Source: Eubacteriales bacterium
Lineage (GTDB): Bacteria > Bacillota > Clostridia > Christensenellales > CAG-138
DNA length: 64,000 nt
Reading direction: 5' to 3'
Assembly (NCBI GenBank): GCA_021373115.1
Contig: JAJFTI010000035.1
Location: 1 to 64,000, forward strand
Part shown: positions 44,804-52,500 of the stretch, piece by piece
How positions within the stretch are numbered: position 1 is the first letter of the stretch
Layout: the number at the start of each line of letters is the position of its first letter
Translations under genes and position numbers: made by a program
Notes under the pieces: model-generated
Databases searched by the model: none
What the model was told of the DNA's origin: nothing
The model's input: only the letters and a program-made list of their open reading frames with translations

Positions 44804-45901
44804 TTGCAGACCGAATTCAATCTGGATCAATATCTTTCGGAGGGCGTGGAGACCATTATCAAGGACGCGCTTGCCGCAAGTTTGAAGAACCCGAAGGAGA
44901 CAGCCTTTCTGCTCTCCTACGCGCTCAGCGCCAAAAAGGCGGAGAACGCGCGTGCCCGTTTTGCCAAAGAAGGACGGCACATTCCGTCCTTCCTGATCGC
45001 CAGCATCACGAACCGCTGCAACCTGCACTGCGCGGGCTGCTATGCGCGCGCGAATCACATTTGCCACGACGGCGAGCAGGATGCGCTGTTGACCGACGAC
45101 GAGTGGAACCGGATCTTTTCGCAGGCGGAGCAGATTGGCGTTTCGTTCATTCTCCTCGCGGGCGGCGAACCGATGCTCCGGCGCGGGGTTGTCGAACGCG
45201 CGGCAGGGCATCGTGACCTGCTTTTTCCTGTGTTTACAAACGGAACGCTGCTCAGCGACGGCATGCTTCGCCTGCTGGACGAGCACCGCAACCTCGTGCC
45301 CATCGTGAGCATTGAGGGCAATCCGGAGCAGACGGATGCGCGGCGCGGAGCAGGCACGTACGAAGCGCTCACGCGTCATATGGAGCAAATGCGCGACCAG
45401 GGCATTCTCTTTGGCGCTTCCGTTACGCTGACAACGGAGAATTTCTCCGTGGTCACCGGTGACACGTTCCTGAAGGACCTCCGCTCCCTTGGCGCAAAGG
45501 TCGTCTTTTTCGTCGATTACGTCCCCGCGGATGCGGGCACGGAGGCACTCGCCCCCGGCGAGCGTGAGCGGGAAGCACTCGCCGCACGGCTGGATCATCT
45601 CCGCGCCAAGCAGGACGGCACGATCTACGTCTCCTTTCCGGGGGATGAACAGTATTCCGGCGGTTGCCTCGCGGCGGGACGCGGCTTTTTCCATATCAAC
45701 CCCACCGGCGGCGCGGAGCCCTGCCCGTTCTCGCCGGTTTCGGACACAAGCCTGCGCCAGGTCTCGCTGCTGGAAGCGCTTGACTCGCCGCTGTTTCAGC
45801 GGCTCCGCGCGAGCGATTTCATGAAAGAGCAGCACACCGGCGCCTGCGCGTTGTTCGGCAAGGACGATGAACTGGCCGCTCTTTGCGGCACGCAAGCCTA
45901 G
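44804..45901 (+). CDS. Radical SAM protein
   Basis: 365 residues. Radical SAM cluster C72-x3-C76-x2-C79 in NRCNLHCAGCYARAN; glycine-rich LLAGGEPMLR follows. The C-terminal end has further cysteines (GGCLAAGRGFF, NPTGGAEPCPFSP, TGACALFGKDDE, ALCG), a SPASM/twitch-like auxiliary-cluster arrangement seen in peptide-maturing enzymes and heme or cofactor enzymes. TTG start at 44804 with GGGAGG eight bases before. Followed by hemolysin III. Confidence 0.9.
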   Translation: MQTEFNLDQYLSEGVETIIKDALAASLKNPKETAFLLSYALSAKKAENARARFAKEGRHIPSFLIASITNRCNLHCAGCYARANHICHDGEQDALLTDDEWNRIFSQAEQIGVSFILLAGGEPMLRRGVVERAAGHRDLLFPVFTNGTLLSDGMLRLLDEHRNLVPIVSIEGNPEQTDARRGAGTYEALTRHMEQMRDQGILFGASVTLTTENFSVVTGDTFLKDLRSLGAKVVFFVDYVPADAGTEALAPGEREREALAARLDHLRAKQDGTIYVSFPGDEQYSGGCLAAGRGFFHINPTGGAEPCPFSPVSDTSLRQVSLLEALDSPLFQRLRASDFMKEQHTGACALFGKDDELAALCGTQA

Positions 45902-46599: not shown

Positions 46600-46697
46600 A
46601 AACGGGCGGTATATCATAATTTTCCACAATCTTCCTGTACGTTTTGTAGGCTTGCCGTCAATCGTTCCAGTCCGGGAGCCGCGCTTTAAAGGAAAAC

Positions 46698-46780
46698 GAA
46701 GCATAACCTTCTCTTTTTCTCGTAATGGCTTGAACAACCTTAATGTACAAGTTTTGAAGCGGTTATGCTTCTTCTTTTTT
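46698..46780 (+). terminator. Long-range terminator hairpin
   Basis: GAAGCATAACC (46698-46708) pairs exactly with GGTTATGCTTC (46761-46771) across 52 bases, followed by TTCTTTTTT. It lies 100 bases after hemolysin III; the remaining gap to 46957 has nothing else recognisable. Confidence 0.65.
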
Positions 46781-46957
46781 AACCTGCCTCAATCCAGAGC
46801 GTAGAGCCTTTTCTCGATTGCAACTTTCGATTGAGGTAAGCCGAATAATCGCGACTATATTGTAAAAAGGAGAACAAATTCCCGATTTGCGATTTCCGGC
46901 CGGACGGCGACGAGAGCAGAAAAGCAGGATCGTCGATTGAAGAAGGAGAGAAAGCGC

Positions 46958-47764
46958 ATGAAATCCCGCGGGTTGTCATGGAAAACGAATACGCAGCTCT
47001 TTTTGCGGTTTCTGCTGGACTCCGCGCTACGCATTTTGAAACGGGGATTGATTACGGCGGGAATTCTCGCAACGCTCGCTCTGGTTTACTGGTCCCACCG
47101 GCCGTTTAACGAGAAGATTTTTACATGCGGTTTGGTGTTCGTTTCCGCCGCGCTCTATTTGATCTACTGCGGCTACCGGGGATTGCCGGGTTTCGCCGAG
47201 TACAGGCGGCGGGCGGCAGTTCGTACAAAACGACAGGATCTGCTGTCGGAACTGGCCAGACTGGACCGAAATGCTTGCGTTCGGGTGGAAGCCGCGAAGC
47301 GGCTGACCGACCAAACCCTGCTGGAAACAATCGCGCGTAATGATGAAAATGTTGAAGTCCGGTCGGCGGCGGCGGGCGGACTCGCCTCGCGGGATCTTCT
47401 GCTTAATGTTGTAATCGCTTCGAAAAATTTGCAGATGTGGCGGTATTGCTTTCCCTATCTGCTCCGGGCGCTCCCGGCGGACGAGACGTTTGCTCAGAAC
47501 CTGCGCGCCGCGGTTTACGGTTCGGAATTTGCGGAGGAGTTGCTCCGGCAGCCGGTCTGTAAATTCTGCGGCGGATGGGTTGAACGCGAAACAAGAGAGC
47601 AACTGCAGTGGCCGGAAGAAGACTTGTATCAACCGGATAGCAAGCGCAAAGAGGAACCGGAATTGGTTCGGTATCAGGTCTATTGCTGCAGAAAATGCGG
47701 CGGGGAATCCACGGTCGGTTTTTCGGTGCCGTTTGCTTCCTTTTTGCCGAAGCAGACGGTATGA
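46958..47764 (+). CDS. HEAT-repeat membrane protein with zinc-ribbon end, paralogue A
   Basis: 268 residues. Order: GLSWKT near the start, two membrane helices (about 31-46 and 54-72), two HEAT-like units (RLDRNACVRVEAAKRL, RNDENVEVRSAAAGGLAS), a block WRYCFPYLLRALPADE, then two Cys pairs C201/C204 and C244/C247 and an end FSVPFASFLP. The two pairs suggest a zinc ribbon. No family recognised; no catalytic motif. Start ATG 46958 has AAGGAGAG upstream. First of three tandem paralogues. Confidence 0.75.
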   Translation: MKSRGLSWKTNTQLFLRFLLDSALRILKRGLITAGILATLALVYWSHRPFNEKIFTCGLVFVSAALYLIYCGYRGLPGFAEYRRRAAVRTKRQDLLSELARLDRNACVRVEAAKRLTDQTLLETIARNDENVEVRSAAAGGLASRDLLLNVVIASKNLQMWRYCFPYLLRALPADETFAQNLRAAVYGSEFAEELLRQPVCKFCGGWVERETREQLQWPEEDLYQPDSKRKEEPELVRYQVYCCRKCGGESTVGFSVPFASFLPKQTV

Positions 47765-47843
47765 TTGCGATTGTGGGAGAACCCTCGCGGGCGGATTGCA
47801 TTGGTGGAAAAACGGAACTCTATTTCGAAAGGCGACGAACAGA

Positions 47844-48851
47844 ATGAAACCGAAAGGACTGTCCATAAAAACGCGGATCGGGCTGCGAACGTGGCATATC
47901 GGCAGAACCGCGCTGCTGGTCCTGCCAATCGCGCTGATGCAGGCCATCGTAATCGCGGTTGTATACCTTATTGTGCGTTCAGATTTGCTGCGTATAGCAA
48001 AAACGATGCTCGTCCTGATCGATCTGTGGTTCGGCGAGTCGCTCGTATACGGAGTTTGGTTTGTGCTGCAGGAGAAGTTCATGGACTATCAGGCGTTTCG
48101 GCAGAAAGTCGCGCGGGAAACGAAGCGCGCGCGCTTGCATCAGGAACTGCTGACGAACGATCCGGACGAGGAAGTCCGCCTGGCGGCGGTCGAAAAGGTT
48201 TATGAAATAAACCGTCTGAACGATATCGCGCTGAACGACGAAAATTGGCGCGTACGCGCGGCGGCGGCGGCTGGCATTCATCATCCAGGCGACGCGGAGG
48301 CGCTTCTTCGCGCGTCCGGCGATCCGGACGTGAGAATGCTTGCTATGTTGAAGATTTGCGATGTCGCGGTTTTACGGGAATATGCGCTGAATGATCCGGA
48401 TTACAGAGTCCGCGCAGCCGCGGCCGGAAAAATCGAATCTCCCGAAATCCTGCTGGAGATCATCGACGGTGAGCAAAGCGAGAGTGTTTGGCGGGTTTGC
48501 CTGCCAAAGCTGATCCGGAAAAGCAAGGTGGACGGAATCATTCCGGAAAACGTCCGAACGGCGATTCGAAACGCGAAATACGTGGAAAAGATGTTAAACC
48601 TAAAGGTTTGCCCCGATTGCGGCGCGGAAGTCTTTATGCATGAAGAATGCAGGGATGTTGACATCGACAACATCAGCGAATACGACGATGATCCGATACT
48701 GGTCGAGCATTATCACTTCTATAAATGTAGTGGTTGCAGGAGGGAAGAAGAGTGGCGCCGCTGGCTAGAACCATTTGACCGGGGCTTCGCGGTTCCGCTT
48801 GCTTCCTTTCTGGACGAGGCGGACAAAAAGGCTGAGGATCATGAAAATTAG
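47844..48851 (+). CDS. HEAT-repeat membrane protein with zinc-ribbon end, paralogue B
   Basis: 335 residues. Same architecture as paralogue A: MKPKGLSIKT, two membrane helices (about 24-44 and 54-75), but four HEAT-like units of about 27 residues (for example NDENWRVRAAAAAGI and NDPDYRVRAAAAGKIES), WRVCLPKLIRKSKVD, Cys pairs C256/C259 and C295/C298, end FAVPLASFLD. Start at 47844 fits the paralogue alignment, though its ribosome site (AAAGG) is weak. The extra repeats compared with A and C indicate module gain or loss. Confidence 0.75.
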   Translation: MKPKGLSIKTRIGLRTWHIGRTALLVLPIALMQAIVIAVVYLIVRSDLLRIAKTMLVLIDLWFGESLVYGVWFVLQEKFMDYQAFRQKVARETKRARLHQELLTNDPDEEVRLAAVEKVYEINRLNDIALNDENWRVRAAAAAGIHHPGDAEALLRASGDPDVRMLAMLKICDVAVLREYALNDPDYRVRAAAAGKIESPEILLEIIDGEQSESVWRVCLPKLIRKSKVDGIIPENVRTAIRNAKYVEKMLNLKVCPDCGAEVFMHEECRDVDIDNISEYDDDPILVEHYHFYKCSGCRREEEWRRWLEPFDRGFAVPLASFLDEADKKAEDHEN

Positions 48852-48973
48852 CCAAACGTTTTCGAAGCCCGTTTTGAATGTTCGACGGATGGCAGCAGAA
48901 TGATCCATCATTCGTTTAGCCGGAAGGTCGCTCGTCCGGCTTGCGCAGGATGAAACAGAAAGGCGGAAACAAA

Positions 48974-49693
48974 GTGAAACCCAGCGGATTATCCCGAAAG
49001 ACGGATCTCCGGTTCCGGACGAATTATTTCTTGAGAAAGGTGCTTCGTGTTTGCGGCATCGCTTTATTTACTGCGGCTTTTTTAGCCTTGATATGGGTCA
49101 TAATCCGATCCGGTATTTCGCTTGCCGGGAAGATCGAACTCGGAATTTTAACCGCGCTGCCCATGATTATCGTTCCAGGCGCTTTTCTAATGGAAGAAGC
49201 GGAATTCACCTTTGACGTATTTCGCGAGGAAGCGGTCAAGCGCACTTCCGATGCGGTTCTATTGGAAGAAATTGCGTTGCTGGATAACGATCCGGTTGTC
49301 CGATGGAACGCCGCCTCGCAGGTGCGAGATGCGGAACTGGCGGAGAAGCTGATTCGCTCATCGAAAGACGCGTTGGTTTGCTGCAATTGCCTACCGGTGC
49401 TGATTCGCGCGAATGTAGTGGACGGAAGGCTTTCCGGCCGGATTGGAACCCTGATCAACGCTTCAGCCTGCGCGAATACGTTCCGGGAAAGACCTCTTTG
49501 CCAAGATTGTTATAACTTGGTTACACAACGGGAAGCCAGAGTACAGAGATACCTCTACTGTTCGACGGATACCGTGGTCTGCGATGAAGATGACGTTTTT
49601 ATCGAATATATCTGTACGCATTGCGGGCGTGTGTCCGAGGAGGACTTTTCCATTACGCTGGATTCCCTTTTGCCAGACGATTCTCAAATATAA
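48974..49693 (+). CDS. HEAT-repeat membrane protein with zinc-ribbon end, paralogue C
   Basis: 239 residues. (V)KPSGLSRKT aligns with the starts of A and B, so GTG at 48974 (GGCGG upstream) is preferred over ATG 48941 or 48950. Two membrane helices (about 26-45 and 54-72), one HEAT-like unit (LLDNDPVVRWNAASQVRD), CLPVLIRANVVDG, Cys pairs C176/C179 and C214/C217, end SITLDSLLP. 122 bases after B, same strand. Ends at a bidirectional hairpin. Confidence 0.75.
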   Translation: MKPSGLSRKTDLRFRTNYFLRKVLRVCGIALFTAAFLALIWVIIRSGISLAGKIELGILTALPMIIVPGAFLMEEAEFTFDVFREEAVKRTSDAVLLEEIALLDNDPVVRWNAASQVRDAELAEKLIRSSKDALVCCNCLPVLIRANVVDGRLSGRIGTLINASACANTFRERPLCQDCYNLVTQREARVQRYLYCSTDTVVCDEDDVFIEYICTHCGRVSEEDFSITLDSLLPDDSQI

Positions 49694-49697
49694 ATTG

Positions 49698-49728
49698 AAT
49701 ACGGAGGGGCGATCCACCCCTCCGTATT
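49698..49728. terminator. Bidirectional hairpin after paralogue C
   Basis: AATACGGAGGGG / CCCCTCCGTATT, 12 perfect base pairs, 7-base loop, placed between convergent genes. U-tracts are weak on both sides (minus side CAATTTATATTT). Confidence 0.75.
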
Positions 49729-49737
49729 GAAATCCGA

Positions 49738-50400
49738 TTATTTTCGATCCGCAAATCCGGTTTCCGGCGCCCAGACGCAATTGCCCGTCATTTCATAATG
49801 GCAATTGCAGCAGTCGTCTCCGTCTCCCAGCGTTTTTGTACGGGAAAACCCATTGGAGAGACGGTTTGCAAAGAGGTAATCCATGCGACAGATGCCCGGC
49901 AGCAGGCCGGCAACTCCAAATTGAGCGGACAGCTTCTGGAACGGACAGGTCAGGATATCGATTTCAAACGCCTCTTCGGACAGCTTTCGGTAGGCGATTC
50001 TCCAGTCGAGCGGGTGCAATTGATTCTGCTCCTGCCTGCTCAGGTGCAGCGCGGCTTTCTTTTGAAAGGAGCGGTAATAGGACCTTCCAATCGCTTTGGA
50101 AAGCCAGCGGGGGACGTTTGCGACCATCCGGTCGTTCATCATCCAGATACAGCGGTCAATCTCGGCCGGAGCCAGCTCCAGATCGCGAAACGCGCGGTAC
50201 CAGGCGACATAGGCCGGGACGAAACGGTAGTTCAGGGAGAAGATGCTTTTGCCGATATCCGGAACCTGAGGCGCTACCTCTTTAAAATAGCGCAGCGAAA
50301 GCGAGCGGAACGTTTTCCAAAAAGCTTTGCCGTATTGCCGAATCAGAGTCCGGCGGCTTTGCAGCATGGTGTACCTGAAAATGACAGATGAACGAAGCAT
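49738..50400 (-). CDS. ATC hydrolase-like protein
   Basis: 220 residues. The end CRMDYLFANRLSNGFSRTKT followed by LGDGDDCCNCHYEM matches the pattern of L-2-amino-thiazoline-4-carboxylic acid hydrolase family proteins, whose members other than the Pseudomonas enzyme have unknown roles. The helical N-terminal half fits as well. The start is uncertain: ATG 50400 has AAAGGAA about 14 bases upstream; a TTG at 50451 would add 17 residues but has no site. Confidence 0.75.
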   Translation of the reverse strand: MLRSSVIFRYTMLQSRRTLIRQYGKAFWKTFRSLSLRYFKEVAPQVPDIGKSIFSLNYRFVPAYVAWYRAFRDLELAPAEIDRCIWMMNDRMVANVPRWLSKAIGRSYYRSFQKKAALHLSRQEQNQLHPLDWRIAYRKLSEEAFEIDILTCPFQKLSAQFGVAGLLPGICRMDYLFANRLSNGFSRTKTLGDGDDCCNCHYEMTGNCVWAPETGFADRK

Positions 50401-50602
50401 AGGGAAGGATACCGTTCCTTTCGTAAAATAGTTGATGATGCGAAAAATCAAAAAAAAAGGCTGGATTTACAGCTCTGGATATTATTATACAGGAGTCACG
50501 GCAAAAAAAGAAGGGGGGAATTGTTCACCAATACCCGTGAGATGATGTCCAGACCGACGCGATTTCGAGTGAACTTAACCGCTTCGGCCAATCGATTTTC
50601 CG

Positions 50603-50630
50603 TTGCAGGAGCAATCAAATCGTGTATAAT
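50603..50630 (+). promoter_or_regulatory. Promoter of the GntR gene
   Basis: TTGCAG (50603-50608), 16-base spacer, TATAAT (50625-50630). The rest of 50401-50787 holds nothing else recognisable. Confidence 0.65.
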
Positions 50631-50787
50631 AATAGAAATTAGGCGGCGGATTTACGATTAAAGCCGGTTGCACCGTATGAAAAACGGTATTCCAAGGGAT
50701 GCGATACAATCGCAGGAGAAGCGCGCGGGCTTTTTTGCGCACAATCCATCCATGATTGCATTCGAAAAATTGCGGGGGAGCGGCGAT

Positions 50788-51555
50788 ATGGATTGGAATG
50801 AACTAAGGATTGTCTGGACGGAGGAAGCGCCCGTCTATCAGCAGCTGGCCAACTATTTCAGCGCGCGGATTTCCTCTGCGGAGCTGAAGGAAGGGGACGC
50901 GCTGCCAACGGAGACCGCGCTGTGCAAGACGCTTGGCATCAGCCGCTCGACGGTGCGCCAGGCATTCCAGATGCTGGAGGACGAAGGCGTAATCATTCGA
51001 AAAAAACGGGTTGGAACGCGCGTCTGCAAGCCGAAACTGAAGCGAAACATCAATAATCTCTATAATTTCACGACCGAAATGCATGCGCTTGGTCTCGCGC
51101 CAAGTTCGCGGCTGATTTCGTTTTCCACCGTTCACCCGCCGGTAAAGATTGCGGAGCTTCTGAACCTTTCTTCCGGCGACACCACGTTTCGAATCGAGCG
51201 GCTGCGCCTGGCGGACGGCGAACCGCTGCTGCTGGAGACAGCGTATATTCCAACATATATCTGCCCGGCGCTGGCGAAGGAACAGCTCAACGATTCGCTC
51301 TATGAAACGATTCGGGAGTGCTCCGGTTCTTCGCCGATGGAAGCAACGGAGATATATGAGGCGGTCATGCTGAACAAGCGTGACGCGGAGCTTATGAAAC
51401 TGCGCGCGGGCGAGCCGGGGTTCCGTGTTCAGCGTATTTCGAAAAACACGGCGGGCGAAATCTTTGAATACTGTGTTGAGCTAGCGCGCGGGGATCGGAA
51501 CAAGTTTCAAATCGTACTGAAGAATTCCGGCATCCAGTATTCGCGCGTTCTATGA
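50788..51555 (+). CDS. GntR/HutC-family regulator
   Basis: 255 residues. Winged helix LPTETALCKTLGISRSTVRQ and VIIRKKRVGTRV, then UTRA domain (LAPSSRLISFSTVHPPVKIA, TFRIERLRLADGEPLLLETA). Effector unknown. Start MDWNELRIVW follows GGGGGAG. Monocistronic; a weak hairpin with T-rich tail (51559-51590) follows. Confidence 0.92.
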   Translation: MDWNELRIVWTEEAPVYQQLANYFSARISSAELKEGDALPTETALCKTLGISRSTVRQAFQMLEDEGVIIRKKRVGTRVCKPKLKRNINNLYNFTTEMHALGLAPSSRLISFSTVHPPVKIAELLNLSSGDTTFRIERLRLADGEPLLLETAYIPTYICPALAKEQLNDSLYETIRECSGSSPMEATEIYEAVMLNKRDAELMKLRAGEPGFRVQRISKNTAGEIFEYCVELARGDRNKFQIVLKNSGIQYSRVL

Positions 51556-51934
51556 AAAGCGCCAAAATCGCGCTGGATTTTTGCTTTTCTTCGTGCTACA
51601 ATAAAACTTGATCGATTCCTTGAAGGAAGCGCCGGGCATATCGGGAACTCGCATTCTTTGGTTCGAGGATCCAATCCCAGACGGCTGCCGAATTCAAGCC
51701 AAAGAGGGAATACCAAATTTAAAAGTTTCTTACGCCGTTATGTAGTAGCATACGGCTAATTGTGGTTTTGGAGGATGGTAATTCCAGCGTCAAATAGCGC
51801 TTTAGGCCGAACTTCATACCATACATAATCGGAAAAACGCCGAATGAGACATGGAAATTCACAATTCTGCCACCTCAATTTTACTTATTTCGTATGTTAT
51901 GGAAGAATAGTCACAAAAAAGAGCGGAATAGTGG

Positions 51935-51963
51935 TTGATTCTATCGCAAATAGAAAGTATAAT
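51935..51963 (+). promoter_or_regulatory. Promoter of the HPr-fold-like gene
   Basis: TTGATT (51935-51940), exact 17-base spacer, TATAAT (51958-51963). The preceding 51591-51934 contains no gene I can support. Confidence 0.85.
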
Positions 51964-51997
51964 AGCATCGAAGACTAGGAAAGGAGAAAACAGTACA

Positions 51998-52273
51998 ATG
52001 CTGAAGATCAACGTTACGAATCTCAGACGATTCTTTGAAGTCGTCAATGCCTGCGAAAGCTCAGTGCAGCTTATCGTTGCAGAGCGCGAACCGGAAGAAC
52101 TCCGCGGAAACGGTTTTGTGCAGAACCTGCTGCTCGGCACGCAGAACGGAGTAACCAAGCTCTCAATTACGACCAGTTCCGACAAGGACACGGTCAAGCT
52201 GATTCGCTTCATGATGGAAGACGGAATCGCCAACGACGAAGCTACGGGCTCTGCGCTCGTTTCCGTCGCCTGA
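51998..52273 (+). CDS. Small HPr-fold-like protein without catalytic histidine
   Basis: 91 residues. The predicted order beta-alpha-beta-beta-alpha-beta-alpha (INVTN; LRRFFEVVNACES; VQLIVAE; ELRGN; FVQNLLLGTQNG; TKLSITTSSD; KDTVKLIRFMMEDG) equals that of the PTS phosphocarrier HPr. But the H15 loop (GIHARP in HPr) reads NLRRFF, and the S46 region is not conserved, so it cannot carry phosphate in the usual way. Could be a regulatory HPr relative. AAAGGAG upstream; strong promoter. Confidence 0.7.
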   Translation: MLKINVTNLRRFFEVVNACESSVQLIVAEREPEELRGNGFVQNLLLGTQNGVTKLSITTSSDKDTVKLIRFMMEDGIANDEATGSALVSVA

Positions 52274-52344
52274 CAGGACCCGATCATCAACAAGGTTCGT
52301 TCCTGAGGCGGAGGAATTCCACCGACGGGCGAATCCGGGTCCTG
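52274..52344 (+). other. Long hairpin directly after the HPr-like gene
   Basis: CAGGACCCG (52274-52282) and CGGGTCCTG (52336-52344) pair exactly over 53 bases that include a palindromic GGAATTCC. It begins one base after the stop codon and precedes a separate true terminator, so it is a structured 3-prime element or a small RNA candidate. Confidence 0.5.
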
Positions 52345-52369
52345 GGCCGGAAAACAATTGAATAGCACA

Positions 52370-52398
52370 GAGTCCGCGAGAGTTCGCGGACCTTTTTA
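52370..52398 (+). terminator. Terminator of the HPr-like gene
   Basis: GTCCGCG / CGCGGAC stem, 6-base loop, followed by CTTTTT. Confidence 0.85.
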
Positions 52399-52500
52399 TA
52401 TTCGCAGATGATTCTGCCATTTGGCAGGAAAGGATAAAACAAGGACTCCATACGAAATGTACGGAGTCCTTACTGATTATAGATCGCCTGGATGCAGACT

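Follow-up and report, generated by a model that had tools for sequence, protein, structure and literature searches.

The locus examined here raises the question of what is encoded by three adjacent genes whose products each carry a membrane hairpin, a short array of helical repeats and a four-cysteine end, and whether proteins built in this order belong to any known family. The genes lie in a window of 64,000 nucleotides, the whole stretch of DNA that was analysed (contig JAJFTI010000035.1), from the genome of a Eubacteriales bacterium that is 89% complete with 2% contamination. All three are on the forward strand, and the coordinates given in the initial annotation were right: gene 1 spans 46958..47764 (268 aa, with three HEAT-like units of 26 residues between the hairpin and a CxxC/CxxC ribbon), gene 2 spans 47844..48851 (335 aa, with five such units in the same setting) and gene 3 spans 48974..49693 (239 aa from a GTG start, with two). 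The intergenic gaps measure 79 bases (gene 1 to gene 2) and 122 bases (gene 2 to gene 3), no frame is interrupted, and before each start lies a purine-rich stretch resembling a ribosome-binding site (AAGAAGGAG, AAAGGCGA and AGAAAGGCGG, respectively).

Aligned with MAFFT, the three proteins show pairwise identities of 29-32% and are thus diverged paralogues. Residues G5, L6, S7, K9 and T10, both C-x2-C pairs, the C, P, L and R of the CLP-LIR block and a terminal F..S.L motif are invariant, bearing out the shared GLSxKT start, the two cysteine pairs and the VPxASFL-like end described initially. The conserved end is also detectable at the DNA level as a direct repeat family (D1), with the copy encoding GFSVPFASFL in gene 1 at 47717..47746 and further copies at 48783-48812 and 49643-49672. 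Shuffle tests find homology among the three genes in their C-terminal parts (z = 9-20) and in their N-terminal parts (z = 5-15), the weakest N-terminal pair being gene 1 and gene 2 (z = 5.0; 50 observed against a shuffle maximum of 48).

Hydropathy analysis reveals two hydrophobic stretches in each of the three proteins, and in the AlphaFold2 models of genes 1 and 2 these coincide with long N-terminal helices (8-46 and 53-74 in gene 1, 8-45 and 51-77 in gene 2), in line with the two membrane helices proposed at the outset. The resulting hairpins occupy residues 24-74 of gene 1 (47027..47179), residues 18-77 of gene 2 (47895..48074) and, from hydropathy, residues 19-75 of gene 3 (49028..49198). 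The N-terminus carries a net charge of +4 to +7 and a basic stretch follows the second helix, a distribution that, under the positive-inside rule, suggests that both ends of each protein face the cytoplasm.

The hairpin is followed by the repeat array, whose unit is a 26-residue helix pair. In autocorrelation, genes 1 and 3 peak at 26 residues and gene 2 at 52, with 26 next, and cutting the proteins every 26 residues yields a clean register in which the last unit always ends in a C-[LF]-P-x-L-[IL]-R block. The HEAT-like units recognized initially are therefore present, but the earlier counts of two, four and one become three, five and two once the diverged last unit is included: residues 92-169 in gene 1 (47231..47464, the last unit diverged and ending in CFPYLLR), 95-224 in gene 2 (48126..48515) and 93-144 in gene 3 (49250..49405). 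Gene 2 scores above the Pfam gathering thresholds for HEAT and HEAT_2 (46.3 and 31.1 bits; HEAT E 2.5e-12), with genes 1 and 3 below them; in these two, the repeat is shown by the register and by a unit profile built partly from the units of the three genes themselves. In the AlphaFold2 models, which cover genes 1 and 2 and were built from the three sequences, the helix pairs fall exactly on the 26-residue units, with pLDDT mostly at 85-95 in the repeats and reduced in the hairpin and the ribbon loop. Together with the register, the models place helix-turn-helix units in a stacked solenoid, as in the HEAT superfamily.

Because the modelled helix pairs coincide with the 26-residue units, the CLP-LIR block, whose conserved residues had been noted, is in the models not a separate element but forms helix two of the diverged unit that caps the array. 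The paralogues differ in length by whole repeats, as the remodelling originally put forward implies, but remodelling at present is not supported: internal copies within gene 2 are at most 55% identical at the DNA level over 75 nt, which makes the change in repeat number an old one, and this comparison lends no support to a recent repeat duplication.

Each protein then presents four cysteines in two pairs: C201, C204, C244 and C247 in gene 1 (47558..47698), C256, C259, C295 and C298 in gene 2 (48609..48737) and C176, C179, C214 and C217 in gene 3 (49499..49624), all of them invariant in the alignment. The models of genes 1 and 2 set beta strands beside both C-x2-C pairs, the arrangement of CxxC pairs on beta hairpins that defines a zinc ribbon, and the residues between the pairs are poorly modelled. 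Matches to zinc-ribbon profiles are weak (Pfam E 0.03-0.4; archaeal Zn-ribbon RNA-binding proteins E 0.09), so that zinc binding by the four-cysteine end is no more than likely.

Searches of Pfam, NCBIfam, PHROGs and PADLOC returned only HEAT for the three proteins, so a known family for the whole protein was rejected; the strong match to a characterised family that the initial annotation had set as the test of its proposal did not appear at whole length for any of the genes. The fold common to the set that it had expected, a HEAT array followed by a ribbon, is predicted in both models. With Foldseek, the best match of the gene 2 model is the HEAT protein YibA (E 0.012), with PP2A PR65, alphaRep and CpcE also ranking high (E 0.01-0.1); none passes E 0.001, and the gene 1 model, which has fewer units, gave no significant match. 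The three proteins share stacked two-helix units with HEAT alpha-solenoids at large (Pfam HEAT PF02985 and HEAT_2 PF13646; YibA, PP2A PR65, CpcE), whereas their unit has only 26 residues, their units are few and the array stands between a hairpin and a ribbon. Short helical units also occur in alphaRep and in the leucine-rich repeat variant (1LRV), with weak sequence matches (E 0.003-0.1) of which none goes beyond the 0.001 threshold; LRV differs further in its N-terminal iron-sulfur part. In literature searches, no account of an architecture joining membrane hairpin, HEAT repeats and ribbon came up, and searches for RNA families in the region found none.

The full order of modules was absent outside its own genome in searches of the genus (8 genomes, own included), of 103 family, 396 order and 391 class genomes, and was found neither elsewhere among 84,980 species genomes (two pattern scans) nor in viral contigs (one pattern scan), phage or plasmid records. 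Genome searches with the ribbon or the hairpin alone gave weak, scattered matches, and two ribbon-only matches that were examined lacked the architecture. As judged from these searches, the three-gene set is restricted to one species among those sampled, consistent with the lineage-specific set first suggested, and the recurrent tandem copies of the same architecture that had been predicted for relatives were not found. Because a pattern scan detects only those relatives in which the chosen peptides are kept, others that are more distant or unsampled may exist.

Pairs of the modules do occur in related genomes, as revealed by scanning the fetched loci with the HEAT-26 unit profile, hydropathy and cysteine spacing, and all three come together only in genes 1-3. 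Within the scope of the searches, the claim that no described family has this order thus holds for the complete order; for its component pairs it does not. Soluble proteins in the same genome (C33, P0004) and in two others (G345, P0005; G101, C14) have, like genes 1-3, two C-x2-C pairs after the repeat unit, but they lack membrane helices and the VPxASFL tail, their cysteine pairs are spaced by 30-32 rather than 38-43 residues, their ribbon profile aligns weakly with that of genes 1-3 (hhalign probability 67%) and no overall similarity is detectable beyond the repeat and this weak ribbon match. In G101, the HEAT-26 and CxxC protein adjoins a two-membrane-helix, CxxC-rich protein (L096:4368-6290), so that the three modules are present there as two genes. 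In G219 (L097), from another family of the order, proteins resemble genes 1-3 in their tandem arrangement, N-terminal hairpin, repeat type and differing repeat counts, yet they lack the four-cysteine ribbon and, unlike genes 1-3, are encoded next to a twin radical SAM gene. Homology between their hairpins and those of genes 1-3 is not detectable (hhalign probability 0.4%), and hairpin and repeat may therefore have been joined more than once. Several other genomes encode HEAT-26 proteins alone.

The set is best read as a new combination of known modules, with no part new in itself. We propose, with a probability of about one half, that genes 1-3 encode a lineage-specific paralogous set of small membrane-anchored protein-binding scaffolds, or adaptors, facing the cytoplasm. 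This reading draws on the paralogy, on hydropathy and charge, on the helix-pair solenoids of the models, on the Foldseek and Pfam HEAT matches, on the module pairs in relatives and on the fact that HEAT solenoids are in general protein-binding. The positively charged N-terminus and the two-helix hairpin would put both protein ends in the cytoplasm; the short alpha-solenoid of three, five or two units would offer a protein-binding surface differing in length between paralogues; the putative zinc ribbon and the conserved tail may cap the solenoid or make a second contact; and each paralogue would thereby tether a cytoplasmic partner of its own to the membrane. With only one species carrying the set, conservation cannot show which solenoid surfaces matter. 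No partner gene tied to the set was found among the neighbours, as the right-hand one, encoding an ATC hydrolase, is unique to its own genome within the genus and those to the left occur in congeners without the three genes.

The surroundings bear on an alternative that we hold to be unlikely, namely that the set is a variable component of anti-phage defence or of conflict between bacteria, serving as an effector or recognition scaffold bound to the membrane and acquired within a variable locus. To the left, the order GtrA-rSAM-HlyIII is common to congeners (72-86% identical), and the two congeners whose loci were read in detail have, next after HlyIII and in place of the three genes, a Crp-type regulator, a ferredoxin and a GntR regulator, named from their translations. 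The three genes hence sit, as a species-restricted set, at a point of changed gene order. Their third-position GC (0.55-0.64) is below that of the left flank (0.76-0.78), and prokaryotic conflict systems have been reported with HEAT repeats and membrane-linked zinc ribbons (PMC7159879). Against this, the third-position GC of right-flank genes (0.64-0.70) comes near that of genes 1 and 2, PADLOC gave no weighty match (best E 0.019), no phage or plasmid record matched and the annotated neighbours include no nuclease, NTPase, integrase or other effector. A mobile or phage origin was rejected, phage, plasmid and viral contigs having given no matches, and contamination is unlikely because the syntenic left flank (72-86% identity) is on the same contig. 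Across 46600-52500, no congener that was checked has the same gene order right of HlyIII, and in the congeners OadB is found on other contigs, marking a rearrangement point. The ATC hydrolase-like gene (PF14196; 49741-50451, reverse strand) is convergent with the array and was absent from the congeners searched. A nearly perfect 14-pair hairpin in the interval between it and gene 3 (49698..49728), terminator-like on the reverse strand, is likely to act as a two-way terminator. Upstream, an inverted pair followed by a T run (46693..46776, forward strand) is a possible terminator of the HlyIII gene and would make the three genes a separate unit; the count of terminator-like elements in the region is not above that of shuffles.

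Two further readings involve radical SAM enzymes in relatives. In G095 (C2, L102:116-5369), of the same genus, and in G219 (C25, L097:4622-10099), HEAT-26 genes in tandem stand on either side of, or after, a twin-domain radical SAM/SPASM enzyme; the two enzymes are 37% identical over 760 aa and related to TIGR04083, whose cut-off the G219 enzyme passes. It is decidedly improbable, in our estimate, that genes 1-3 represent a new Clostridia-like adaptor family in which whole 26-residue repeats gained and lost between tandem paralogues tune partner choice, with the modules on separate genes in relatives and in some of these connected with a twin radical SAM enzyme that modifies peptides. The homologous enzymes beside HEAT-26 tandems in both genomes, one of them above the TIGR04083 cut-off, would also allow genes 1-3 to be related to that system or left over from it, serving peptide modification as an enzyme or substrate scaffold. 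We regard this as very doubtful, given that their own genome yields just one weak match to the twin radical SAM enzymes and none at this level, and that the radical SAM gene at 44804 is of a different, single-domain type, which congeners keep without adjoining HEAT genes. A link to this gene and HlyIII was rejected, as congeners keep the pair without genes 1-3.

We give least credence to the reading of the set as ordinary HEAT proteins that were duplicated and are now decaying, with little or no present function; this would accord with the single species, the strong divergence and the few repeats of gene 3, the fewest in the set, but the three intact frames with start signals and the cysteine pairs and terminal motifs left invariant at about 30% overall identity argue for selection.

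If the scaffold reading is true, the three proteins would constitute a compact natural series, with two, three and five repeats on one frame, for studying how solenoid length sets partner choice at the bacterial membrane, and membrane anchor, HEAT solenoid and zinc ribbon would be modules that are shuffled separately within one bacterial order.
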